The notes beneath the pieces are model-generated. The model saw only the letters and a program-made list of their open reading frames with translations, was not told the DNA's origin and made no database searches. A stretch of 64,000 nucleotides of DNA from Thioclava sp. GXIMD2076 (GTDB lineage Bacteria > Pseudomonadota > Alphaproteobacteria > Rhodobacterales > Rhodobacteraceae): contig NZ_CP149932.1 of assembly GCF_037949795.1 (NCBI RefSeq), positions 1,725,001 to 1,789,000 on the forward strand, given 5' to 3'. Positions 1,228 to 22,327 of the stretch are shown piece after piece; position 1 is the first letter of the stretch; each line of letters opens with the position of its first letter. The translations under genes and the position numbers were made by a program.

Positions 1228-1506
1228 ATGCGGCAAGAATATGCCGAAGAAATCGCGCTCGGCGCTTTGGGGTGGCTTGCGGGGCAGGAAAGTCTGCTTG
1301 AGGCCTTTCTCAATGTCAGCGGCGCCGATGCCAGCCAGATCCGCACCATCGCGCAGGATGCGGGTTTCCAGACCGCGATCCTCGATTTTATCCTGACGCA
1401 GGATGAATGGGTTCTTGGCTGCGCGCAGGATATGGGGCACCGTCCGGAGGAGCTGGTGATGGCGCGGGCCGTATTGGGCGGCGGCGACCAGATGCACTGG
1501 ACCTGA
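1228..1506 (+). CDS. DUF3572 family protein
   Basis: A 92-residue soluble protein, rich in Ala and Leu, matching the small alphaproteobacterial DUF3572 family (helical, function unknown) in length and in its LAWLA / DFILTQDEWVL pattern. I chose the ATG at 1228 (MRQEYAEE) because a GGGGG stretch precedes it at good spacing and family members start with similar residues. An upstream in-frame ATG at 1198 would add ten residues but has a poor ribosome site. It lies 10 bases before the HAD hydrolase gene, so the two are probably cotranscribed. Confidence 0.7.
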   Translation: MRQEYAEEIALGALGWLAGQESLLEAFLNVSGADASQIRTIAQDAGFQTAILDFILTQDEWVLGCAQDMGHRPEELVMARAVLGGGDQMHWT

Positions 1507-1516
1507 GGGAGACAGT

Positions 1517-2236
1517 ATGGATATCAAGGCCCTGCTATTTGACAAGGACGGCACGCTGTTCGACTTCCACGCTACATGGGGGGTCTGGGCCGCGCGGCTT
1601 CTGGACCATCTTTCGGCGGGGGATACGGTCCTCAGGGCCGATCTGGCAGGGGCGATCGATTATGATCTGGCGACATCGCGCTTCCGCCCCACCTCCGTGG
1701 CCATTGCCGGAACGATGGACGAGATCGTAGAGGCGATGCTGGCCCATCTGCCGGGACGCACGGCCTCCGATCTGGCGCGGGAGATGCATCTGATGGCGCA
1801 GGAGGCGCCGCAGGTGGCCGCAGCCCCTCTGGATGTGCTCTTGCCGCAATTGCGCGGGATGGGGCTGAAGCTGGGGGTCATGACCAATGATTCCGAGGCC
1901 TCGGCCAAGGTGCACCTGACCCGCGAGGCGGCGCTCGACTATTTTGACTGTGTCTTCGGGGCGGATAGCGGGCACGGGGCCAAGCCCGATCCGGCTCCGC
2001 TTCTGGCGCTGGCGCACAGGCTCGGGGTGGCGCCTGCGCATTGCGTGATGCTGGGTGACAGCCTGCATGACCTGCAGGCGGCGAAGGCGGCGGGGATGGT
2101 GCCGGTCGGGGTCCTGACAGGCCCTGCAAGTGCGGAGGATCTTGCGCCCCATGCCCGCGCGGTGCTCGGTGACATTGGCGAGCTGCCGCAATGGCTTGCA
2201 CGGCAGGATTGTGATCTGTGTCCTGTGACGGGTTGA
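1517..2236 (+). CDS. HAD-superfamily hydrolase, phosphoglycolate-phosphatase-like
   Basis: A 239-residue HAD phosphatase. Motif I is FDKDGTLF (nucleophile D9, acid/base D11), motif II MTNDS, motif III Lys in GAKPDP, and motif IV GDSLHD. A helical cap domain of about 80 residues follows motif I, as in the Gph/PGPase group. The substrate cannot be told from the sequence. A dedicated Gph candidate lies at 35917, so this paralogue may act on another phosphomonoester. A GGGAGA site precedes the ATG. It follows the DUF3572 gene closely. Confidence 0.8.
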   Translation: MDIKALLFDKDGTLFDFHATWGVWAARLLDHLSAGDTVLRADLAGAIDYDLATSRFRPTSVAIAGTMDEIVEAMLAHLPGRTASDLAREMHLMAQEAPQVAAAPLDVLLPQLRGMGLKLGVMTNDSEASAKVHLTREAALDYFDCVFGADSGHGAKPDPAPLLALAHRLGVAPAHCVMLGDSLHDLQAAKAAGMVPVGVLTGPASAEDLAPHARAVLGDIGELPQWLARQDCDLCPVTG

Positions 2237-2300
2237 GGGTATTTTAACAGTCGGAGCCTAATGCTGGACGGAGATTACGTTCAATACGGGTCCGATTATC

Positions 2301-2924
2301 ATGCATGGTCTTATAAACACCTCTATCCAGACGTTTCTGACGGGAAATTATGGTCCGTCGGTCTGGCTTGATGTTGCCTCCGATCTGGGGATTTCCCCCG
2401 AGGGTTACGAGGCGATGTTGACCTATGACAATGCGCATACCGATGCGCTTCTGGCCGCAGCCTCCGCACGGCTGAACAAGCCGCCCCTCGTTTTTCTGGA
2501 GGATCTCGGTGCTTATGTCGCCATGATCGAGCCTGTGCGCAGACTTCTGCGGTTCAGTGGCCCGAACTACCGGGAATTCCTGTCCTCTCTCAGCGAGTTG
2601 CAGGGGCGCGCCCAGATGGCGCTCCCCGATCTGGAGATGCCCGAGATCACCTGCTCTCTGGAGCAATCCGGTGTCTACCGGCTGCGTGTGCACAGTCCGG
2701 TTCTGGGCTGGGGCGCGGCGATTACCGGTCTCGTGCGGGCGATGGCCGATGATTACGGCGCGCTGGCCTTTATCGAATATCTTGATCAGGAGCACGATCC
2801 GGAAGCCCTGACGGACGAGGAGATCCGGGCCGAAGGTTTGCTACGGGAATCGGTTCTGGTAACCCTGCTCGAGGAAAGCTTTGCCGAAGGACGCAGTTTC
2901 GATCTGGCGATAGGTCAGTCATGA
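2301..2924 (+). CDS. H-NOX-like (heme NO-binding domain) protein lacking the proximal His
   Basis: A 207-residue protein with the H-NOX fold pattern: N-terminal MHGLINTSIQTFL, then FLEDLG at about 65-70, and the segment FLSSLSELQGRAQ at 93-105. In heme-binding H-NOX proteins this last segment carries the proximal histidine (pattern FLxNLDxLHxR). Here the aligned residue is Q101. The downstream heme-propionate motif YxSxR is also degraded (V130, S132, V134). So the fold is recognisable but the usual heme ligands are missing. The stop overlaps the start of the next gene (ATGA at 2921-2924), a cyclase with an HNOBA-like domain, the usual partner type for H-NOX sensors. The family call is good; heme-free behaviour is inferred. 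Confidence 0.75.
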   Translation: MHGLINTSIQTFLTGNYGPSVWLDVASDLGISPEGYEAMLTYDNAHTDALLAAASARLNKPPLVFLEDLGAYVAMIEPVRRLLRFSGPNYREFLSSLSELQGRAQMALPDLEMPEITCSLEQSGVYRLRVHSPVLGWGAAITGLVRAMADDYGALAFIEYLDQEHDPEALTDEEIRAEGLLRESVLVTLLEESFAEGRSFDLAIGQS

Positions 2925-3952
2925 TGTTGGTAAATTCCAGTGATACCGCGCGCAAACCCTCTCTGCCGCGCCTTTCGATCAAGGCGCTGGGGGAGCTGAT
3001 GCCGATGTTCCTCTGGCTCGATGCCGAAGGGACGATCCTCGGGATGGGCCCGACGCTCTCGAAAGTTGTGGGCGGGCCATCGGCCATCGGTCATTCGGTG
3101 ACCGATTGCTTCCAGATGGGGCGGGGACGGATGCGGCAGGCGGCGTTCGATCTGTCGCCCTCGCACCGGCTGCATCTGACACCGCGTAGCTGGCCCGACG
3201 TGTCGCTGCGCGGTGTGGCCGTGCCACTGGTCGAGGAGGGGCTGATGCTCAACCTCACCTTCGGGGTCCATCTTAACAAGGCCATCCGCGCCTTCCGCCT
3301 GACCGAGGCTGATTTCACCACCTCCGACCTGACGATGGAGCTTCTCTATCTGCAGGAGGCCAAAACTGCCGTGCTGGGAGAGCTGCGCGCGCTGAACAGC
3401 CGGTTGGAGCGGGCGCGCCGTTCGGCCGAGGATGCCGCGCGCACCGATCCGCTGACAGGGCTGTCCAACCGCCGCGCCTTCGACATCGCGCTGGAGGCCA
3501 CACTTGAGGCATCGCGCCGCGGCGGCGCACCATTTGCGCTGGCGCAACTCGATCTCGATCATTTCAAGGCGGTCAATGATACTCTGGGTCATGCGGCGGG
3601 CGATCATGTGCTGGCCGAGGTTGCCAAGATCCTGCGCGAGGAGACCCGCGAGATGGATGTCGTCTCGCGCGTGGGGGGCGATGAATTCGTAATGCTTCTG
3701 CGGGATTCGCTGGAGCCCAGCCGTCTGCAGCATATGGGCGAGCGCATCATCGCGCGGCTCGAGGTGCCGATCCCCTTCGAGGGGCATGAATGCCGCATCT
3801 CGGGCTCCATCGGTGTGGCCATGTCGAAGGATTACGCCGACCCGCTGGCCGAGGAGATGATGGCGGATGCGGATGCGGCCCTTTACAAATCCAAGCGCGA
3901 GGGGCGTGCACGCTGCACTCTCTCGACGCCGGGCATGGGGCTTGCCCTCTGA
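2921..3952 (+). CDS. HNOBA-like plus GGDEF diguanylate cyclase
   Basis: A 343-residue protein. Residues about 20-160 resemble the HNOBA (heme-NO-binding-associated, PAS-like) domain and end in a coiled linker with the pattern LLYLQEAKTAVLGELRALN. Residues about 175-335 are a GGDEF domain, starting at DPLTGLSNRRAF, with an intact GGDEF signature and, five residues before it, REMD, a fit to the RxxD inhibitory I-site. It should therefore be an active, product-inhibited diguanylate cyclase. No EAL domain and no membrane segment. Translationally coupled to the H-NOX-like gene by a four-base overlap, so the two products are probably a sensor/output pair. Confidence 0.88.
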   Translation: MMLVNSSDTARKPSLPRLSIKALGELMPMFLWLDAEGTILGMGPTLSKVVGGPSAIGHSVTDCFQMGRGRMRQAAFDLSPSHRLHLTPRSWPDVSLRGVAVPLVEEGLMLNLTFGVHLNKAIRAFRLTEADFTTSDLTMELLYLQEAKTAVLGELRALNSRLERARRSAEDAARTDPLTGLSNRRAFDIALEATLEASRRGGAPFALAQLDLDHFKAVNDTLGHAAGDHVLAEVAKILREETREMDVVSRVGGDEFVMLLRDSLEPSRLQHMGERIIARLEVPIPFEGHECRISGSIGVAMSKDYADPLAEEMMADADAALYKSKREGRARCTLSTPGMGLAL

Positions 3953-4038
3953 GAACACTGCCGATTTGCATGCCCGCGGGTGGCAATTTGTCGCATTAGG
4001 GCTTTCCAACCCCATGCGCTTTGGCTAGGTCTTCGCGC

Positions 4039-4656
4039 ATGAGCCAGAATTTTCCCATAGCCCGTCCGGGCATGCGTATCGGTTTGTTGGGCGGGTCTTT
4101 CGATCCGGCTCATGCCGGCCATGCGCATATCAGCCGGATCGCGCTACGCCGGTTCGCGCTGGATGAGGTCTGGTGGCTGGTCAGTCCGGGCAATCCGTTG
4201 AAGCCGCAGGGACCGGCGGCGCTTGCCGACCGGATGGCGCGGGCCCGCGAGGTCATGCCCGACCCGCGCGTAAAGATCACCGATCTCGAACAGCGTTTGG
4301 GGACACATTTCACCGCCGATACGTTGAATGCGCTGCAATCGCATTATCGCGGCGTGAATTTCGTGTGGCTGATGGGCGCGGATAACCTGATCCAGATCGA
4401 CCGCTGGGATCACTGGCGCGATATCTTCCACCGGATGCCGGTCGGGGTGCTGGCGCGTCCGGGCCTGTTGATGCGGGCGCGCTATTCCAAGGCTGCGCGG
4501 GTTTTTGCCAATGCGAAGCTGCCGGGGTGGCGTTCGCGCGAGCTGGCCGGGAGTGGCGCACCCCAATGGTGCTTCATCAATATGCCGATGTCGGCGGAAT
4601 CCTCGACCCGTATCCGTGCCGCAGGCCAGTGGAAAAGTCCCGCGCGCGGCGCTTGA
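4039..4656 (+). CDS. nadD: Nicotinate-nucleotide adenylyltransferase
   Basis: NadD converts nicotinate mononucleotide plus ATP to deamido-NAD in NAD synthesis. The nucleotidyltransferase signature GGSFDPAHAGH lies near the N-terminus and the C-terminal SSTRIR motif is present; the length of 205 residues is normal. The start is the ATG at 4039 (MSQNFPIARP); an in-frame TTG at 4021 is an unlikely longer start. The gene stands alone between the cyclase pair and dacB. Confidence 0.93.
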   Translation: MSQNFPIARPGMRIGLLGGSFDPAHAGHAHISRIALRRFALDEVWWLVSPGNPLKPQGPAALADRMARAREVMPDPRVKITDLEQRLGTHFTADTLNALQSHYRGVNFVWLMGADNLIQIDRWDHWRDIFHRMPVGVLARPGLLMRARYSKAARVFANAKLPGWRSRELAGSGAPQWCFINMPMSAESSTRIRAAGQWKSPARGA

Positions 4657-15260: not shown

Positions 15261-15383
15261 CGGATCGAAGGGCCGGTTGACCGACCGGCCGCCCGATCCG
15301 GTTTTAGGGAGGGGTTGGCCTCGCGCGGCATCTGTCCGTGCGCGGCTGGCTTATGGAGAAAATCCAAAGGGAGACACCAAAAA

Positions 15384-15640
15384 TGGCTGATCAATCATCA
15401 TCCAATGCCTATTGGAAGGCCAATATCCGCACGATCAAGATCTATCTGGTGATCTGGTTCGTCTGTTCCTTCGGCTTCGGCATCCTGCTGCGTCCGCTTT
15501 TGGCGGGCATCCCCGTCGGCGGAACCGATCTGGGCTTCTGGTTTGCCCAGCAGGGCTCGATCCTCGTGTTCCTCGTGCTCATCTTTTCCTATGCGGCAAA
15601 GATGAACAAGCTCGACCGCGAACACGGCGTCGAAGAGTAA
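15384..15640 (+). CDS. DUF4212 small membrane protein, symporter partner
   Basis: An 85-residue protein with two transmembrane helices (KIYLVIWFVCSFGFGILL and FGFWFAQQGSILVFLVLIFSYAA-like segments, about 17-38 and 51-73). It matches DUF4212, the small subunit-like protein encoded just before large sodium/solute symporters. The start is the ATG at 15384 (MADQSSSNAYWK), with AAGGGAG upstream; a longer reading from 15338 lacks a good site. The symporter gene follows after 12 bases. Confidence 0.88.
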
Positions 15641-15652
15641 GGGGGGCGACAG

Positions 15653-17395
15653 ATGGATCAGTTTACCCTCAACCTGCTCTTCGTCGGCGCGACCTTCGCG
15701 CTTTATATCGGCATCGCGATCTGGGCCCGCGCGGGTTCTACCTCGGAATTCTATGCCGCAGGGCGCGGGGTCCATCCCGTGCTCAACGGCATGGCCACCG
15801 GCGCGGACTGGATGTCGGCGGCCTCCTTCATCTCGATGGCGGGGATCATCGCTTTCGGTGGGTTCAATACCTCGGCATATCTGATGGGCTGGACCGGCGG
15901 CTATGTGCTTCTGGCTATGCTGCTGGCGCCATACCTGCGCAAGTTCGGCAAGTTCACCGTGCCGGAATTCATCGGTGACCGCTTCTACAGCCAGACCGCG
16001 CGCACCGTGGCCGTGATCTGCCTGATCATCGCCTCCGTCACCTATGTCATCGGCCAGATGACCGGTGTGGGCGTGGCCTTCTCGCGCTTCCTCGAAGTGT
16101 CGAACGAGACCGGCCTCTATATCGGCGCGGCGATCGTGTTCATGTATGCCGTGCTTGGGGGCATGAAGGGCATCACCTATACGCAGGTGGCGCAATATGT
16201 CGTGCTGATCATCGCCTATACCATTCCGGCGGTCTTCATCTCGCTGCAACTCACCGGTAACCCGATCCCGGGTCTGGGCCTGTTCTCCGAGAGCACCGCG
16301 ACCGGCCAGCCGATCCTGCAGGAACTCAACGGGTTGCTCGCCGATCTGGGCTTTGCGAGCTATACCGCGCAATCGGACACGATGCTGAACATGTTCCTGT
16401 TCACCATGTCGCTGATGATCGGGACCGCGGGTCTGCCCCATGTGATCGTGCGCTTCTTCACCGTGCCGAAGGTCTCGGATGCCCGGTCCTCCGCAGGTTG
16501 GGCGCTGGTGTTCATCGCACTGCTTTACCTGACCGCGCCTGCGGTGGGTGCGATGGCCCGTCTGAACCTGATCAACACGGTCTATCCCGAAGGCACCCAA
16601 TCGGCTCCGCTCTCCTATGAGGCGCGTCCTGACTGGATGAAAAACTGGGAGCAGACCGGTCTTCTGAAGTTCGAGGATAAGAATGGCGATGGCCTGATCA
16701 ACTACGTCAATGGCAAAGCCGAAGATCCGGCCTCGGCCAATGAACTGTCGGTCAATAACGACATCATCGTGCTGGCCAATCCCGAAATCGCCAATCTTCC
16801 GGGCTGGGTGGTCGCGCTGATCGCGGCGGGTGGTCTGGCAGCGGCACTGTCCACGGCGGCAGGCCTCTTGATGGCGATCTCCTCGGCGGTGAGCCATGAT
16901 CTGATCAAGAGCCAGATCAATCCGGGGATCTCGGAGAAGGGCGAACTGCTATCGGCGCGGATCGCGATGGCGGTGGCGATTGCGGTGGCAACCTGGTTGG
17001 GTCTCAACCCGCCCGGATTTGCGGCGCAGACCGTGGCACTGGCCTTCGGCCTTGCAGCCTCCTCGATCTTCCCCGCGCTGATGATGGGCATCTTCTCGAA
17101 GCGCATCAACAACAAGGGTGCCGTGGCCGGGATGCTGACCGGTCTGATCGTGACCATCATCTATATCTTCCTGCATAAGGGCTGGTTCTTCGTTCCGGGC
17201 ACGAACAGCTTCGATGATACCGATCCGCTGCTGCTGTCGATCAAATCCACCTCCTTCGGGGCGGTGGGGGCCGTGATCAACTTCGTGGTTGCCTATCTGG
17301 TGTCCTCGGCCACCGAAGAGCCGCCGGAAGAGATCCAGGATCTGGTCGAGTCGATCCGTATCCCCAAAGGGGCGGGTCAGGCCGTCGATCACTGA
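15653..17395 (+). CDS. Sodium:solute symporter (VC_2705/ActP-like), probable acetate uptake
   Basis: A 580-residue SSF-family transporter with about 13 transmembrane helices. It starts MDQFTLNLLFVGATFALYIGIAIWA and has the SSF signature region ATGADWMSAASFISMAGIIAFGGF. An inserted soluble stretch of about 80 residues (PEGTQSAPLSYEARPDWM through NPEIANLP) is typical of the large TIGR03648 subgroup that pairs with DUF4212. The position after acs and adk suggests acetate or a related short-chain acid as substrate. GGGGGG precedes the ATG at 15653. Confidence 0.9.
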   Translation: MDQFTLNLLFVGATFALYIGIAIWARAGSTSEFYAAGRGVHPVLNGMATGADWMSAASFISMAGIIAFGGFNTSAYLMGWTGGYVLLAMLLAPYLRKFGKFTVPEFIGDRFYSQTARTVAVICLIIASVTYVIGQMTGVGVAFSRFLEVSNETGLYIGAAIVFMYAVLGGMKGITYTQVAQYVVLIIAYTIPAVFISLQLTGNPIPGLGLFSESTATGQPILQELNGLLADLGFASYTAQSDTMLNMFLFTMSLMIGTAGLPHVIVRFFTVPKVSDARSSAGWALVFIALLYLTAPAVGAMARLNLINTVYPEGTQSAPLSYEARPDWMKNWEQTGLLKFEDKNGDGLINYVNGKAEDPASANELSVNNDIIVLANPEIANLPGWVVALIAAGGLAAALSTAAGLLMAISSAVSHDLIKSQINPGISEKGELLSARIAMAVAIAVATWLGLNPPGFAAQTVALAFGLAASSIFPALMMGIFSKRINNKGAVAGMLTGLIVTIIYIFLHKGWFFVPGTNSFDDTDPLLLSIKSTSFGAVGAVINFVVAYLVSSATEEPPEEIQDLVESIRIPKGAGQAVDH

Positions 17396-17510: not shown

Positions 17511-19358
17511 ATGCGTGACGATCTTGCCTCAGTCGTGACTTTTCTCGAAGGGGTCCACCCCTACGATACCCTGCCGCGTAACGATCTGGTCCGCGTGGCC
17601 CGATCCTTTGTCCGCAGGGAACTGTCCGAGGGCACCGAGATCTATCATCATGGCGTGCCGCTGGAGGGGCTCTATCTGGTCTGCTCCGGTGCCGTCGAGA
17701 TCCGCGATGCCAATGGCGGGCTCGTCTCTCATCTGGGGCCGCGCAACAGTTTCGGCGAGCGCGGGCTGATGCGCGACGGGCGGGCGGCCACCACGGCGCG
17801 GATGGAGGAGGCCGGTTTGCTCCTGATGCTGCCTGTTGCCGAATTCACGGCATTATGCGCGGCCGTCGAAAGCTTCCACCGGTTTTTCGACCGCTCGCCG
17901 GCGGCCTCGCTATCGGCGCGCGCGCGGTCAGGGGCGGATCTGGCGGGTATGCGGGTGGCGGACCTGCTATCGGGCAAGGTTGTGGCCTGCCGCCCCGAGA
18001 CCAATGTGGTGGAGGCTGCGCGGCTGATGCGCGACCATCATGTGTCCTCGCTGGGCGTAACAGATGCGGAAGGAAGGCTTCTGGGTATCGTTACGCAACG
18101 TGATATGTCGAGTAAGGTTCTGGCCGGCAACTTCCCGACCTCGGCCGAGGTAGGCCGCGTGATGACCCCCGATCCGGTGAGCCTCGGTCCCGAGGCGCTG
18201 GGATCGGATATCCTGCACCGGATGTTCGAGCATGGCATCGGCCATCTGCCGGTGACCGAGGGCGGGCGACTGATCGGCATGATCACCCAGACCGATCTGA
18301 CGCGTTTTCAGGCGGTCAGCTCGGCGGGGCTGATCCACGAGATCGCGCGCGCGCAGGATGTGGCGCAGATGGCCGCGATCACCGCCCGCATCCCGCAGCT
18401 TCTGGTGCAGCTGGTGGGGGCGCATCACGCCCATGAGGTCACTACACGGCTTATCACCGATATCGCCGATGCCGTCACGCGCCGCCTGTTGGGGATGGCC
18501 GAGGCGCAGCTGGGTCCCGCGCCCGCGCCCTGGGTCTGGGCGGCGTGCGGCAGCCAGGGGCGGCAGGAACAGACGGGCGTATCGGATCAGGATAACTGCC
18601 TGATCGTGGATGACAGCGCATCGGATGCGGATATGGAGTATTTTCGCAAATTCGCCCATATCGTCTCGGACGGGTTGCAGGCCTGCGGCTATGTCTATTG
18701 CCCGGGCGATATGATGGCCACCAACCCGCGATGGTGCCAGCGGACCGAAGTCTGGGCGCGCTACTTCCGTAGCTGGATCGCCACGCCCAATCCGGAGGCG
18801 CAGATGCTGGCCTCGGTGATGTTCGACCTGCGGGTGATCGGCGGCACGGCGCCCGCGTTGTTTGAGGCATTACAGGCCCAGACACTGGTCAATGCTGCCA
18901 AAAACTCGATCTTCGTGGCGCATATGATCGCCAATAGCCTCAAACATACGCCGCCTCTGGGGCTGATCCGCGGCTTTGCCACGATCCGCTCCGGCGAGCA
19001 TCGCAACCATATTGATCTCAAACATAACGGCGTGGTGCCCGTGGCCGATCTGGCCCGTGTCCATGCGCTGCGCGGCCGGCTTGTTGCGGTCAATACCCGC
19101 GCGCGGCTGATGGCGGCGCGCGAGGCGGGCACGCTCTCGGTCAGTGGCGGGCAGGACCTGCTGGCGGCCTATGATCTGATCGCCCAGACGCGGCTCGAGA
19201 CCCAGGCCCGCCAGATCCGTCAGGGGCAGGCCCCCGATAATTACCTTGCGCCCTCGGCGCTTCCCGATTTCGAACGCTCGCATCTGCGTGACGCCTTCGT
19301 GGTGGTGCGCTCTCTGCAATCGGCCATGGGCCATGGCAAGGCCAATCTCGGCCAGTAG
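17511..19358 (+). CDS. cNMP-binding / CBS-pair / DUF294 nucleotidyltransferase-like protein
   Basis: A 615-residue soluble protein with four modules. Residues about 15-125 are a cyclic-nucleotide-binding-like beta barrel (GLYLVCSGAVEIRD, FGERGLM). About 145-275 are two CBS domains (VVEAARLMRDHHVSSLGVTD; HRMFEHGIGHLPVTE). About 300-430 is the DUF294 nucleotidyltransferase-like domain with GSQGRQEQTGVSDQDN (GS...DxD) near 346-361. About 455-600 is the DUF294 C-terminal helical domain. The GlnD-like catalytic signature suggests transfer of a nucleotide to a partner protein or a sensor of adenylates. In other proteobacteria I recall such genes beside actP/acs and a DnaQ-like exonuclease gene, as here. 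Confidence 0.88.
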   Translation: MRDDLASVVTFLEGVHPYDTLPRNDLVRVARSFVRRELSEGTEIYHHGVPLEGLYLVCSGAVEIRDANGGLVSHLGPRNSFGERGLMRDGRAATTARMEEAGLLLMLPVAEFTALCAAVESFHRFFDRSPAASLSARARSGADLAGMRVADLLSGKVVACRPETNVVEAARLMRDHHVSSLGVTDAEGRLLGIVTQRDMSSKVLAGNFPTSAEVGRVMTPDPVSLGPEALGSDILHRMFEHGIGHLPVTEGGRLIGMITQTDLTRFQAVSSAGLIHEIARAQDVAQMAAITARIPQLLVQLVGAHHAHEVTTRLITDIADAVTRRLLGMAEAQLGPAPAPWVWAACGSQGRQEQTGVSDQDNCLIVDDSASDADMEYFRKFAHIVSDGLQACGYVYCPGDMMATNPRWCQRTEVWARYFRSWIATPNPEAQMLASVMFDLRVIGGTAPALFEALQAQTLVNAAKNSIFVAHMIANSLKHTPPLGLIRGFATIRSGEHRNHIDLKHNGVVPVADLARVHALRGRLVAVNTRARLMAAREAGTLSVSGGQDLLAAYDLIAQTRLETQARQIRQGQAPDNYLAPSALPDFERSHLRDAFVVVRSLQSAMGHGKANLGQ

Positions 19359-19384: not shown

Positions 19385-19918
19385 ATGATCATAGATTTTA
19401 TCGCAATGTTCTCGGCGGCGGCACTGGCGGTGCTGGTGGTCTTCGCGGCGCGCCACGGGTTGCGCAAATGGGCCGGTGTGACTTTGCCCAAATGGCTGAT
19501 GCCCGCGATGGCCGGTCTCGCCATGCTGGGCTACACGGTCCATGCCGAATATCGCTGGTATCCCGATCTGAAGGCGGGGCTCGGGGGCGATATGAGCGTG
19601 GTGATGACCGTCGAGGATAGCAATTTGTGGCGCCCGTGGACCTATGCCAAACCGGTCACCACACGGTTCATGGCGGTGGATCTGGCGCAGGTGAGTGACC
19701 CCGCCCCCGGCCTGCGCGAAGGGCGGCTACTGCTGGTCTCGCGCTGGCAGCCTGTTCAGGCGGTGCCGGTGGCCTATGATTGCGCAGGCCATCGCCGCGC
19801 CGATCTGATCGGCGGCGCGCAGCTGTCGGGGAGCGATCTGACGGGCGGTGACTGGCGCGATATCGCGCCTGATGACCCGGCGATGGCCGCGATCTGCGGG
19901 GGGGTGGGCCATGGCTGA
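19385..19918 (+). CDS. Membrane-anchored protein of unknown function
   Basis: 177 residues with two N-terminal hydrophobic helices (about 2-22, IIDFIAMFSAAALAVLVVFAA, and 38-57, KWLMPAMAGLAMLGYTVHAE), followed by a soluble domain of about 115 residues that should face the periplasm or cytoplasm depending on topology. Cys residues occur at DCAGHRRAD and ICGG. I do not recognise a family. An AAAGGAGA site lies before the ATG. The last bases overlap the receiver gene, so it belongs to the DUF294/receiver/kinase-exonuclease operon. Confidence 0.75.
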   Translation: MIIDFIAMFSAAALAVLVVFAARHGLRKWAGVTLPKWLMPAMAGLAMLGYTVHAEYRWYPDLKAGLGGDMSVVMTVEDSNLWRPWTYAKPVTTRFMAVDLAQVSDPAPGLREGRLLLVSRWQPVQAVPVAYDCAGHRRADLIGGAQLSGSDLTGGDWRDIAPDDPAMAAICGGVGHG

Positions 19919-20309
19919 ACGGGGCGACGATGGCATGGCGCGGCGGATACTGATCGTCGAGGACGAGGACAATATCGCCATGGCGCTCGATTTCCTGATG
20001 GGGCGCGAGGGGTTCGAGCATGCGCGGATCTCGACGGGGGCAGGTGCTATCGACTTGATCCGCGACATGCGCCCCGATCTGGTGCTTCTCGATATCATGC
20101 TGCCCGAGGTGTCAGGCTACGAGATCTGCGAGGCCATGCGCCTCGATCCCGATCTGCGGGCGGTGAAAATCCTGATGATGACCGCGCGGGGCTCCTCGGT
20201 GGAGCGTCGCAAGGGGCTGGCGCTCGGGGCGGACGGGTTCATCGCGAAACCCTTCGAGCTCAAGGAGCTGCGCGCCGAGCTGCATCGCCTGCTCGATGAG
20301 GCCGCCTGA
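19911..20309 (+). CDS. Single-domain response regulator (receiver only)
   Basis: 132 residues holding one receiver domain and no output domain. Acidic pair in LIVEDEDN, phosphoacceptor D61 in LVLLDIMLPEVSG, Thr in MMTARG and Lys in FIAKPFE are all present, so it should be phosphorylatable. I use the ATG at 19911, which overlaps the stop of the preceding gene; a second ATG at 19935 (MARRILIVED) is possible. The stop overlaps the start of the kinase-like/exonuclease gene (TGATG at 20307-20311), giving tight coupling. Confidence 0.9.
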   Translation: MAERGDDGMARRILIVEDEDNIAMALDFLMGREGFEHARISTGAGAIDLIRDMRPDLVLLDIMLPEVSGYEICEAMRLDPDLRAVKILMMTARGSSVERRKGLALGADGFIAKPFELKELRAELHRLLDEAA

Positions 20310-22327
20310 TGGAGGCTTGGGGGGCGCGGCTGGGGTTGCGTTTGCGGGTCTTTCTGCTTTTTGCGGCTCTGGCTGTCGGTCTGGTGCTGGCACTGCTGGC
20401 CGGAGCATGGCTGGGCGGGCGGCAGGGGCAGGAGCGGCTGGTGGTCATGGCGCTGGTCTCGGGGCTTTTGGGGGTCACGTTGGTCGCGGGGCTGTGGCTG
20501 TTATTCGATGAACATGTGGCCCGTCCGATCGAGGCTCTTGCAGGCGCGATGCGTCTGGCCGGATGGGGCGATAGCGCCGCCTTTGACGCGCCCTATCTGG
20601 GCGATCTTGGGCCTGCGGGCGCCGCATTGGGCGAGGCGATGTCGGCGCAGAACACGCGCATGGCCCGCGAGGTCGAACAGGCGCTTGCCCAGGCCGCTAC
20701 CTCGCAGGCGCGGCTCGAAGTGCTGCTCGCCGATATGCCGGTGGCGGTGCTTTTGTTGTCACGGGATCTGCGCGTCGTGCTCTATAATCCGCAGGCAGCG
20801 GCCTTGCTGGTGGCGGGGGAGGCCAGACCCGGACTGGGGCGCAACCTGGCCGATTTCGTGGAACTCGCGCCGATTCTGCATGCCATAGACCGCCTGTCGC
20901 ACGAAGAGGATCCGGAGGCGCGCTCGGATCTTCTCTGCACTACCCATGCGGGGCAGGTCCTGACAGGCCATCTGCGCTGTCTGCCGGGAAGCGGTGCGGA
21001 GGGCGGTCATGTGCTGACCCTGCAGGATGTCTCGGCCCAGAGCTCGGCCAGCCGTGCTGCAATGGCCCTCAATGCCGAGATCCTTGCAACGATCACGCCC
21101 GCGATTGCGGCCCTGCATTCGCTGCTCGATACCCTGACCGATCCGCAGGGGCCGCAGGGCGAGGACCGCAGCCGCGTGCGCATGGCGGCGCAGGCGCAGG
21201 TCCGCAGCCTGACGCGCGATCTGCACCGGCTGGGCCAGCAGGCCGAGCGGATCCCCGACTGGACGATGGCCGAGATCCGTGCCTCCGATCTGGCCGAGGC
21301 CGTGCGCGCGCGGATCGGCCGCCCGCTGACGCTCGCCACCAGCTCGCTGATCCTGCGCGCCGATGCCGAGGCGCTGCTCGATCTCTGGGGCCGGATTGTT
21401 CCCGCCGTGGATCGCGAAGGGCGCGGGGAGTTCCGGCTGGAAATCACGGCCGAGGGGGCGGGGGCGCTCATGGCGCTCGAATGGCAGGGAGCGCCATTGC
21501 CATTCGCACAGCTCGACGCGCTCCTGGGCCCGTCCGAACGGCAGGTGCTCGACCGCCATCGCAGCGATATCTGGCCCGAAACCCTGCATGACGGGCGGGC
21601 GCGGCTCTGTCTGCCGCTACGCGATCTGGCGCCGGCTGCGGACCGGCCCGACCGCTACCCCCGCCGCGTCACCTATGATTTCGACCTTCTCGACCGCCAG
21701 CCCCCGGGCGATATCCGCCTGACGCCGCTGGAGCAACTGACCTATGTGGTCTTTGACACCGAGACCACGGGGCTCGATCCCGAAACCGATGCTATCGTGC
21801 AGATCGCGGCACAGCGGATCGTCAATGGCCGCGTCTGCGAAACCTTCGAGATGCTGGTCAACCCCGACCGTCCGATCCCCGCCTCGGCACAGGCCATCCA
21901 CGGGATCAGTGACGAGATGGTCGCTACCGCCCCGACCGCCGCCATAGCAATCGGGAGGTTCCATCATTTCGCACGCGATGCGGTGCTGGTTGCCCATAAC
22001 GCCCCCTTCGATATCGGCCTGCTCCGCGCCGCACTCCGCCGCCATCCGCAACCGCTGACCTTCGAGCATCCCGTGCTCGATACGGTCCTTCTCTCGGCCA
22101 TCCTGTTCGGCCAGAGCCAGTCACACACGCTCGATGCGCTCTGCGACAGGCTCGGCATCCTGATCCCGCCCGAGGCCCGCCACAGCGCGATGGGCGATAC
22201 CGATGCCACCGCGCGCGCCTTCCTGCGCATGCTGCCTGCCCTCAAGTCCAAAGGTCTGCACCGGCTGGCGGACCTCATCATCGCCGCGCGCAAGCATGGG
22301 CGCCTGATCCGTGACCTGAACCTGTAA
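20309..22327 (+). CDS. Membrane sensor-kinase-like protein fused to a DnaQ-type 3'-5' exonuclease
   Basis: 672 residues. Two transmembrane helices (about 11-33 and 44-68) lead into a HAMP-like segment, a PAS-like domain (about 135-240; LADMPVAVLLLSRDLRVVLYNPQA), and a region laid out like HisKA plus HATPase_c (about 245-450). That region lacks an H-box (ATITPAIAALHSLL where a kinase has HELRTP), an N-box and the DxGxG box, so autokinase activity is unlikely. From about 477 an exonuclease domain has all DEDDh residues: D483 and E485 (FDTETTG), D568 (HNAPFD), H625 and D630 (HSAMGD). Translation is coupled to the receiver gene. It is a membrane-tethered exonuclease or oligonucleotide-degrading enzyme with a sensor head; the substrate is unknown. 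Confidence 0.88.
   Translation: MEAWGARLGLRLRVFLLFAALAVGLVLALLAGAWLGGRQGQERLVVMALVSGLLGVTLVAGLWLLFDEHVARPIEALAGAMRLAGWGDSAAFDAPYLGDLGPAGAALGEAMSAQNTRMAREVEQALAQAATSQARLEVLLADMPVAVLLLSRDLRVVLYNPQAAALLVAGEARPGLGRNLADFVELAPILHAIDRLSHEEDPEARSDLLCTTHAGQVLTGHLRCLPGSGAEGGHVLTLQDVSAQSSASRAAMALNAEILATITPAIAALHSLLDTLTDPQGPQGEDRSRVRMAAQAQVRSLTRDLHRLGQQAERIPDWTMAEIRASDLAEAVRARIGRPLTLATSSLILRADAEALLDLWGRIVPAVDREGRGEFRLEITAEGAGALMALEWQGAPLPFAQLDALLGPSERQVLDRHRSDIWPETLHDGRARLCLPLRDLAPAADRPDRYPRRVTYDFDLLDRQPPGDIRLTPLEQLTYVVFDTETTGLDPETDAIVQIAAQRIVNGRVCETFEMLVNPDRPIPASAQAIHGISDEMVATAPTAAIAIGRFHHFARDAVLVAHNAPFDIGLLRAALRRHPQPLTFEHPVLDTVLLSAILFGQSQSHTLDALCDRLGILIPPEARHSAMGDTDATARAFLRMLPALKSKGLHRLADLIIAARKHGRLIRDLNL

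Follow-up and report, generated by a model that had tools for sequence, protein, structure and literature searches.

The 64,000-nucleotide stretch of Thioclava sp. GXIMD2076 DNA analysed here (the window) carries a gene in which a membrane part, a PAS-like domain, a region shaped like a histidine kinase and a DEDDh exonuclease are joined in a single open reading frame (ORF) of 672 codons with no internal stops. The gene is present in a single copy in its own genome, where another, shorter DnaQ-like ORF lies elsewhere. The gene directly upstream encodes a single-domain receiver, for which no output domain was reported by Pfam. The receiver TGA and the exonuclease-gene ATG share one base (TGATG, 20307-20311), an overlap that supports the translational coupling claimed in the original prediction, which had been made from the letters of the window and described a degenerate sensor kinase fused to an intact exonuclease. 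The positions of the gene, its parts and its neighbours are collected in Table 1, in which DHp denotes the dimerisation and histidine phosphotransfer hairpin and CA the catalytic and ATP-binding part of histidine kinases.

Table 1. Positions in the window of the fusion gene, its parts and the neighbouring genes of the cluster
Feature	Position	Strand	Basis
Whole gene: membrane PAS-pseudokinase-DEDDh exonuclease, 672 aa	20309..22327	+	ORF, Pfam, AlphaFold2 model
N-terminal hydrophobic helices, about residues 10-66 (modelled helices 10-37 and 42-83)	20336..20506	+	sequence hydrophobicity, AlphaFold2 model
PAS-like domain, about residues 134-246	20708..21046	+	Pfam PAS_4 just below cutoff; PAS above cutoff in some relatives
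DHp-like helical hairpin, residues 242-312; A260 at phospho-His position	21032..21244	+	profile comparison, PDB profile search, AlphaFold2 model, alignment
CA-like (HATPase_c-derived) part, residues 321-442; W392 at G1-box Asp position	21269..21634	+	profiles, AlphaFold2 model, alignment
YDFDLL linker, residues 456-461, common to long and short forms	21674..21691	+	alignment of relatives
DEDDh (DnaQ-like) exonuclease, about residues 474-662; D483, E485, D568, H625, D630	21728..22294	+	Pfam, PDB searches, AlphaFold2 model, alignment
Single-domain receiver, start 19911 or 19935; acidic pair, phospho-Asp, Thr and Lys intact	19911..20309	+	Pfam, alignment
177-aa membrane protein, conserved in cluster	19385..19918	+	without Pfam or NCBIfam match
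cNMP-binding/CBS/DUF294 putative nucleotidyltransferase	17511..19358	+	Pfam
VC_2705 family sodium/solute symporter (TIGR03648, 841 bits against cutoff 321)	15653..17395	+	NCBIfam
DUF4212, symporter small subunit (TIGR03647)	15383..15640	+	Pfam, NCBIfam

The AlphaFold2 (AF2) model, built on a 58-row alignment, reached a mean predicted local distance difference test (pLDDT) of 88.6 and a predicted template modelling (pTM) score of 0.77. It consisted of long N-terminal helices, a PAS-like alpha/beta part, a hairpin formed by residues 242-277 and 285-312, a CA-like part at about 321-442 and the exonuclease at 478-662. Two membrane helices are predicted at the N-terminus from the hydrophobic sequence and the modelled helices. 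The PAS-like part, which is likely a ligand sensor, stayed just short of the Pfam PAS cutoff in the window protein (22.7 against 23.1 bits) and passed it in the relatives L102 (34.5) and L113 (35.7), loci of relatives being labelled L and genomes G with a number. N160 of this part was invariant in 58 of 58 rows of alignment A2, which was made without L191, L217 and L223 (stops or an off-frame match). A HAMP-like part, also named in the original prediction, was absent from the Pfam matches of the window protein up to E 1.

The exonuclease domain matched Pfam RNase_T at residues 480-638 (E 1.6e-36, 126.7 bits against a cutoff of 24). Its catalytic residues D483, E485, D568, H625 and D630 were invariant in three overlapping sets of aligned relatives (48 of 48, 101 of 101 and 111 of 111), and the claim of a DnaQ-type domain with all five catalytic residues is confirmed. 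Sequence searches of the PDB returned PolC 2p1j (E 7e-30) and epsilon 1j53 (3.5e-19), and the AF2 model was matched to 2gui with a template modelling (TM) score of 0.86 by target length. By sequence, the nearest exonuclease domains among the matches listed were those of PolC, epsilon and DinG, with which the window protein has the DEDDh fold and the five catalytic residues in common, and not oligoribonuclease; no Orn model was found among the 25 best of 33 NCBIfam families and no Orn chain among the PDB sequence matches listed. The protein differs from the replicative proofreader DnaQ, as it fell below the cutoffs of the Pol III epsilon equivalog (TIGR01406, 103.9 against 222.7 bits; PRK05711, 108.8 against 196) and the separate DnaQ-like ORF is present in the genome. 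Nuclease action as the output of this predicted exonuclease is plausible. The sequence gave no support to nanoRNA or pGpG as its substrates, because the domain is nearest to PolC, epsilon and DinG and the genomic context is one of carboxylate transport and a nucleotidyltransferase.

For the kinase-shaped region, neither HisKA nor HATPase_c was reported by Pfam in the window protein at E up to 1, and the sensor part, searched as a single sequence against PDB chains, produced chance matches only (best E 0.61). A profile of 16 relatives, however, matched VicK-like 4i5s (1.1e-12, profile positions 118-458) and ThkA 3a0r (2.3e-9, positions 145-456) colinearly, and comparing profiles with intact symporter-like kinases over their catalytic region gave probabilities of 98.9% (global) and 98.0% (local). 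Foldseek searches with the AF2 model returned WalK 9a5d (2.5e-15) and VicK 4i5s (3.0e-10), with ThkA, LOV kinases and DEDDh exonucleases also among the best matches; the whole-chain TM-scores of these kinases were low at 0.15-0.39, as expected for jointed multidomain chains. Sub-threshold Pfam HisKA matches lay just past the lost histidine in three of the eight long (hairpin-bearing) forms scanned (L105 0.024, L106 0.011, and L113 0.011), and a sub-threshold HATPase_c match was seen in the long form L069 (0.19). Both the DHp hairpin and the CA fold of histidine kinases were recovered by profiles, AF2 and Foldseek. Because the relatives' profile matches, the profile-profile comparison and the kinases returned by Foldseek place kinase ancestry beyond chance, the transmitter core is, as judged from its sequence, a true HisKA/HATPase histidine-kinase descendant turned pseudokinase.

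The residues of catalysis were followed in a joint alignment of 111 long forms, one duplicate having been dropped from 112 rows. The phospho-His column held Glu in 53 rows, Asp in 42, Ala in 5, Ser in 3, Thr and Arg in 2 each, and Gly, Ile, Pro and a gap in 1 each. Histidine was found there in 0 of the 111, with row L194 carrying one a single column further on. Trp (W392 in the window) replaced the G1-box Asp in 108 of 111, G394 was kept in 108 and H417 in 109, and no column within residues 345-375 had an N-box Asn in more than 15 of the 111 rows. An active histidine kinase was therefore rejected as a candidate, as the H-box His, the N-box Asn and D-x-G-x-G are all missing from the window protein and from the aligned long forms. 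The dead core has a signature of its own, namely Asp or Glu where the His would be, an Arg two or three positions downstream and W-x-G instead of D-x-G. The window copy is somewhat eroded: its CA loop is shortened, and Ala stands where the acidic residue would be. Asp or Glu occupied the lost phospho-His position in 95 of 111 long forms, as if a fixed negative charge had been selected. The domain-level reading of the original prediction, one ORF with an intact exonuclease behind a kinase fold without H-box, N-box and DxGxG box, was confirmed overall, in the window and in relatives alike; close homologues with a working H-box and no conserved exonuclease residues, which it had named as a refuting case, did not turn up, as 0 of 111 have the His and 111 of 111 keep the five residues.

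A relative at E 1e-30 or better was detected in 85 of 198 genomes of the family, with at most six candidates scored per genome. The long form also occurs in at least one other class of the phylum. Among 83 loci of the window's family, 30 carried the hairpin-bearing long form and 53 did not. Long forms were found in Rhodobacter capsulatus, Gemmobacter, Frigidibacter, Celeribacter and Paracoccus, and short forms in Ruegeria, Roseobacter and Leisingera. The simpler forms comprise transmembrane (TM)-PAS-exonuclease proteins of about 470 aa, TM-exonuclease proteins of 287-347 aa and a lone exonuclease of 237 aa (L290). The idea that a frameshift or a faulty assembly fused two genes into an artefact has next to nothing to recommend it. 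A gene split over two frames in one relative genome (L149 of G022) would fit such an error; but a single frame with the same linker was found in the window, in at least 36 family genomes matching most of the query, in 11 genomes from other families of the class with similarly broad matches and in 14 loci of another class, and this refutes the artefact, which the original prediction had named as a refuting case.

Several further observations were made among the relatives. The split gene of L149, in a draft genome, runs over two overlapping frames, through decay or sequencing error. In many short-form draft genomes the contig ends some 6-7 kb from the gene and has adk at its border, which suggests a repeat or break just upstream of adk. 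Long forms were also found in records labelled as beta- or gammaproteobacteria (L204 Pusillimonas minor, L199 Ca. Thiodiazotropha, L223 Competibacteraceae), by transfer or from a contaminant contig. ORFs of about 500 aa at L087, L092 and L093 place an EamA-type permease ahead of an exonuclease of the same type, with a Pfam basis for L087 only. Exonuclease and CBS-DUF294 are joined in one ORF at L097 and L099, with Pfam matches above cutoff for both parts, and also at L294 and L295, a Rosetta-stone link between the two.

Among the relatives, the receiver was found to track the hairpin. The hairpin was retained at 41 of 101 loci, 38 of which have an adjacent receiver on the same strand. The exonuclease ORFs without a hairpin had an adjacent receiver in 0 of 60 cases; L149 is counted among the 60 only through its split gene, the sensor half of which has a receiver, and at L115, L116 and L119 a receiver lies elsewhere in the locus. 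Six of the 60 (L067, L070, L071 and L152-L154) have lost most of the hairpin, retain 122-131 of 131 CA-like columns and are missing the receiver; the receiver therefore goes with the hairpin. A single deletion cannot account for the joint loss, because the retained TM-PAS part sits between the two. On a tree built without the sensor columns, seven independent pairs could be compared, of which 6 or 7 agreed and 0 opposed (p 0.0156-0.0312). This tree had 88 rows, 87 of them counted; L149 and 13 loci lacking one of the three proteins were left out of the counts, and the divergent 77-bit receiver of L111 was set by hand to present. A second tree without long-branch rows (81 rows, with 7 more-divergent or split rows left out) was run with both choices for L111 and gave five pairs, with 5 of 5 in agreement when its receiver was counted, 4 of 5 and one without difference when it was not, and 0 opposed. 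In 57 organism-labelled long forms, a set that overlaps, and is not independent of, the 101 loci, 45 had a receiver scoring 100 bits or more in the locus, 2 a weaker one (L186 and L212) and 10 none, and every row with a receiver keeps at least 51 hairpin columns. The rule is one-sided: the receiver occurs only with the hairpin, and the hairpin sometimes occurs without a local receiver. Receivers beside long forms are intact, with the phospho-Asp and the Lys in 39 of 39 each and Asp as second acid in 37 of 39, so that a kinase fold without kinase residues is conserved next to an intact receiver, as for DivL, with the hairpin-without-receiver cases as exceptions.

Because the dead core has its own conserved signature and tracks the receiver gene, it points to a receiver-docking input module. 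The part of the original interpretation that took the protein for a non-kinase with an intact exonuclease and a coupled receiver is supported; its description of the kinase part as a sensor scaffold is probably too weak and is here refined to a candidate receiver-docking input. A passive role of the remnant was weighed against this, in which control or mere anchoring of the exonuclease falls to the PAS part and the membrane helices alone, with the kinase remnant serving as a spacer and the receiver adjacent by history. The short TM-PAS-exonuclease, TM-exonuclease and lone 237-aa forms fit that account, since they share the symporter/DUF294 context without hairpin or adjacent receiver. It is nevertheless considered unlikely, as the dead core retains its signature across 111 sequences and none of the hairpin-less ORFs has a receiver next to it, apart from the split L149 with its receiver by the sensor half.

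In the window, members of TIGR03648, TIGR03647 and DUF294 stand side by side, as in the VC_2705 symporter/DUF4212/DUF294 cluster. Of the 83 loci of the window's family, 82 contain DUF294, 82 a symporter and 80 the 177-aa gene, and DUF294 was present in 71 of 80 loci of the second, organism-labelled set. The 177-aa protein, found in nearly every cluster of the family, has two N-terminal helices and a beta-rich domain with invariant C133 and C171; its model reached a pLDDT of 91.3, and no PDB fold match at E 0.001 or better was found for it. A promoter scan gave 0 sites and a terminator scan 6 against 3.5 in shuffles (standard deviation 2.1), values that are uninformative in GC-rich DNA.

The stand-alone pair of exonuclease and CBS protein in the CrbS/MxtR regulon has already been published (PMC9927547), and a CBS-nucleotidyltransferase is described as a target in the regulon (PMC5715377). 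In Pseudomonas putida, according to the available portion of PMC9927547, the RNase_T-family gene pp_0353 forms an operon with the CBS-protein gene pp_0354 and, like actP-I, is needed for normal growth on pyruvate; its deletion slowed growth on pyruvate, and deletion of pp_0354 (CBS/DUF294-type) did not. As in the window cluster, an RNase_T exonuclease beside a CBS protein is linked there to a symporter (actP) and an SSS/STAC sensor kinase in the MxtR/ErdR, CrbS/CrbR regulon (PMC9927547). A difference is that the regulation of pp_0353 is described as transcriptional, and neither a secretion signal nor a pseudokinase fusion is described for it in the portion of PMC9927547 consulted. Because the window cluster contains a VC_2705-type symporter and pp_0353 and actP-I share the pyruvate growth defect, the window protein probably has, by analogy, a role in carboxylate uptake. 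Exonuclease and DUF294 nucleotidyltransferase might also be an eraser and writer pair acting on one RNA or protein-linked nucleotide, with the signalling parts only setting the balance. The frequency of DUF294 at the loci of both sets and the single ORFs of L097 and L099, from two lineages, are in favour of such a pair; the P. putida deletions, in which the exonuclease gene but not the CBS/DUF294-type gene affected growth on pyruvate, speak against it, and it is held to be rather improbable.

A possible source of the phosphoryl group lies in the symporter-like kinases that accompany long forms. Beyond the window's family, 7 of 11 alphaproteobacterial long forms have such a kinase as the next gene downstream, and at L069 it lies just upstream of the long form. 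In another class the order symporter, DUF294, receiver and long form recurs, with the receiver adjacent in 14 of 14 loci and the kinase downstream in 9 of 14. The neighbouring kinases are ORFs of 900-1000 aa in which an intact kinase core follows an N-terminus that resembles a symporter. HisKA and HATPase_c were above the Pfam cutoff in all four that were scanned; Pfam SSF scored 19.9 and 18.3 in two of them against a cutoff of 22.8 and was unlisted in the other two, and their likeness to symporters rests on a profile built in this analysis. In these features they resemble the SLC5/STAC kinases CrbS, MxtR and RpuS, as far as the consulted parts of PMC5715377 and PMC9100948 describe them. The window protein itself is not a member of that group; the likeness concerns its neighbouring kinases. 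The genome of the window holds one symporter-like kinase, 42% identical and outside the window. At this locus (L161), a second single-domain receiver (743-1168) directly precedes the kinase (1378-4188).

DHp cores that lack kinase activity can still act on receivers. Information might accordingly run in the opposite direction, with the pseudokinase core acting on the receiver as a sink or phosphatase and the binding of nucleotides or nucleic acid by the exonuclease tuning the signal to the receiver's other targets. This general ability of DHp cores and the range of the symporter-like kinase, wider than that of the exonuclease, would suit such a flow. The catalytic residues of the exonuclease are, however, invariant in 111 of 111 sequences, which mere binding would not require, the CA part has lost its nucleotide-binding residues and exonuclease forms without the core exist, so that reverse flow appears quite unlikely.

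The reading preferred here, to which we give about an even chance, is that the VC_2705-symporter/DUF294 system includes a DEDDh exonuclease that is held at the membrane, controlled by the receiver via the pseudokinase and put to use in carboxylate uptake. A symporter-like (CrbS/MxtR-like) histidine kinase would phosphorylate the upstream single-domain receiver, which would dock on the dead DHp hairpin in a manner that reads its phosphorylation state. Docking together with the PAS signal would shift a putatively dimeric pseudokinase and so gate the exonuclease, which may act near the membrane in support of the uptake of acetate- or pyruvate-type carboxylates.

A number of points weigh against this reading. 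From the phosphorylation step on, the mechanism is an inference. The short TM-PAS-exonuclease form functions without receiver or hairpin. Three of the 41 hairpin-bearing loci lack an adjacent same-strand receiver (none at L068, one on the opposite strand in the locus at L105, the 77-bit one at L111), and 7 of the 10 receiver-less rows of the organism-labelled set keep at least 50 hairpin columns (L182, L187, L205, L220, L225, L233, and L235). A trimmed hairpin of 51-54 of 66 columns is found with the receiver retained in seven Paracoccus-type rows and in L227; the initial cut-off of 59 columns was too strict, and the hairpin criterion was fixed only after the data had been seen. The five pairs of the reduced tree (p 0.0625 or 0.125) are too few for significance. 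The symporter-like kinase occurs in 172 of 197 family genomes, against 85 of 198 for the exonuclease relative, and therefore serves other targets too, and in the genome of the window it lies about 94 kb away and is paired with its own receiver. The likeness of pp_0353 to the window protein is one of family and context.

The closest precedent for the proposed input arm is DivL of Caulobacter, in which, in the part of PMC4211667 available, loss of catalysis makes the transmitter a reader of phosphorylated DivK. Both proteins combine a membrane and PAS part with a histidine-kinase fold in which the phospho-His is replaced, both are conserved with a single-domain receiver, and for both a reversed flow of information is proposed (PMC4211667). 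They differ in output, which for DivL consists of protein contacts with CckA, as far as that source goes, and for the window protein is a covalently attached exonuclease. DivL has Tyr at the His position, whereas the long forms mostly have Asp or Glu and the window protein has Ala. DivL binds DivK in the same source; receiver binding by the window protein is predicted.

Most known two-component outputs take the form of DNA binding, second-messenger enzymes, methyltransferases or protein contacts, and the arrangement described here suggests signalling with a nuclease, rather than a gene switch, at its end. Each of the modules is already known; the conserved fusion of pseudokinase and exonuclease with a tracking receiver appears to be new. 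Open-access literature searches found no description of such a fusion, which is not proof of its absence from print. In a more specific and quite doubtful version, a two-component pathway would end in the trimming of RNA or nucleotides, running from the transporter-like kinase through the receiver and a pseudokinase with a fixed acidic residue to an exonuclease that erases the additions made by CBS-DUF294, so that carboxylate uptake would be set post-translationally or post-transcriptionally rather than through a transcription factor. With long, hairpin-less and short forms provided by nature, the question lends itself to direct testing. A dead histidine kinase as the conserved input arm of a nuclease would, if true, widen the DivL concept of reversed flow to include an enzyme as output. 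It would also provide a handle on the long-standing puzzle of why an exonuclease and a DUF294 nucleotidyltransferase accompany acetate/pyruvate-type symporters in many proteobacteria.

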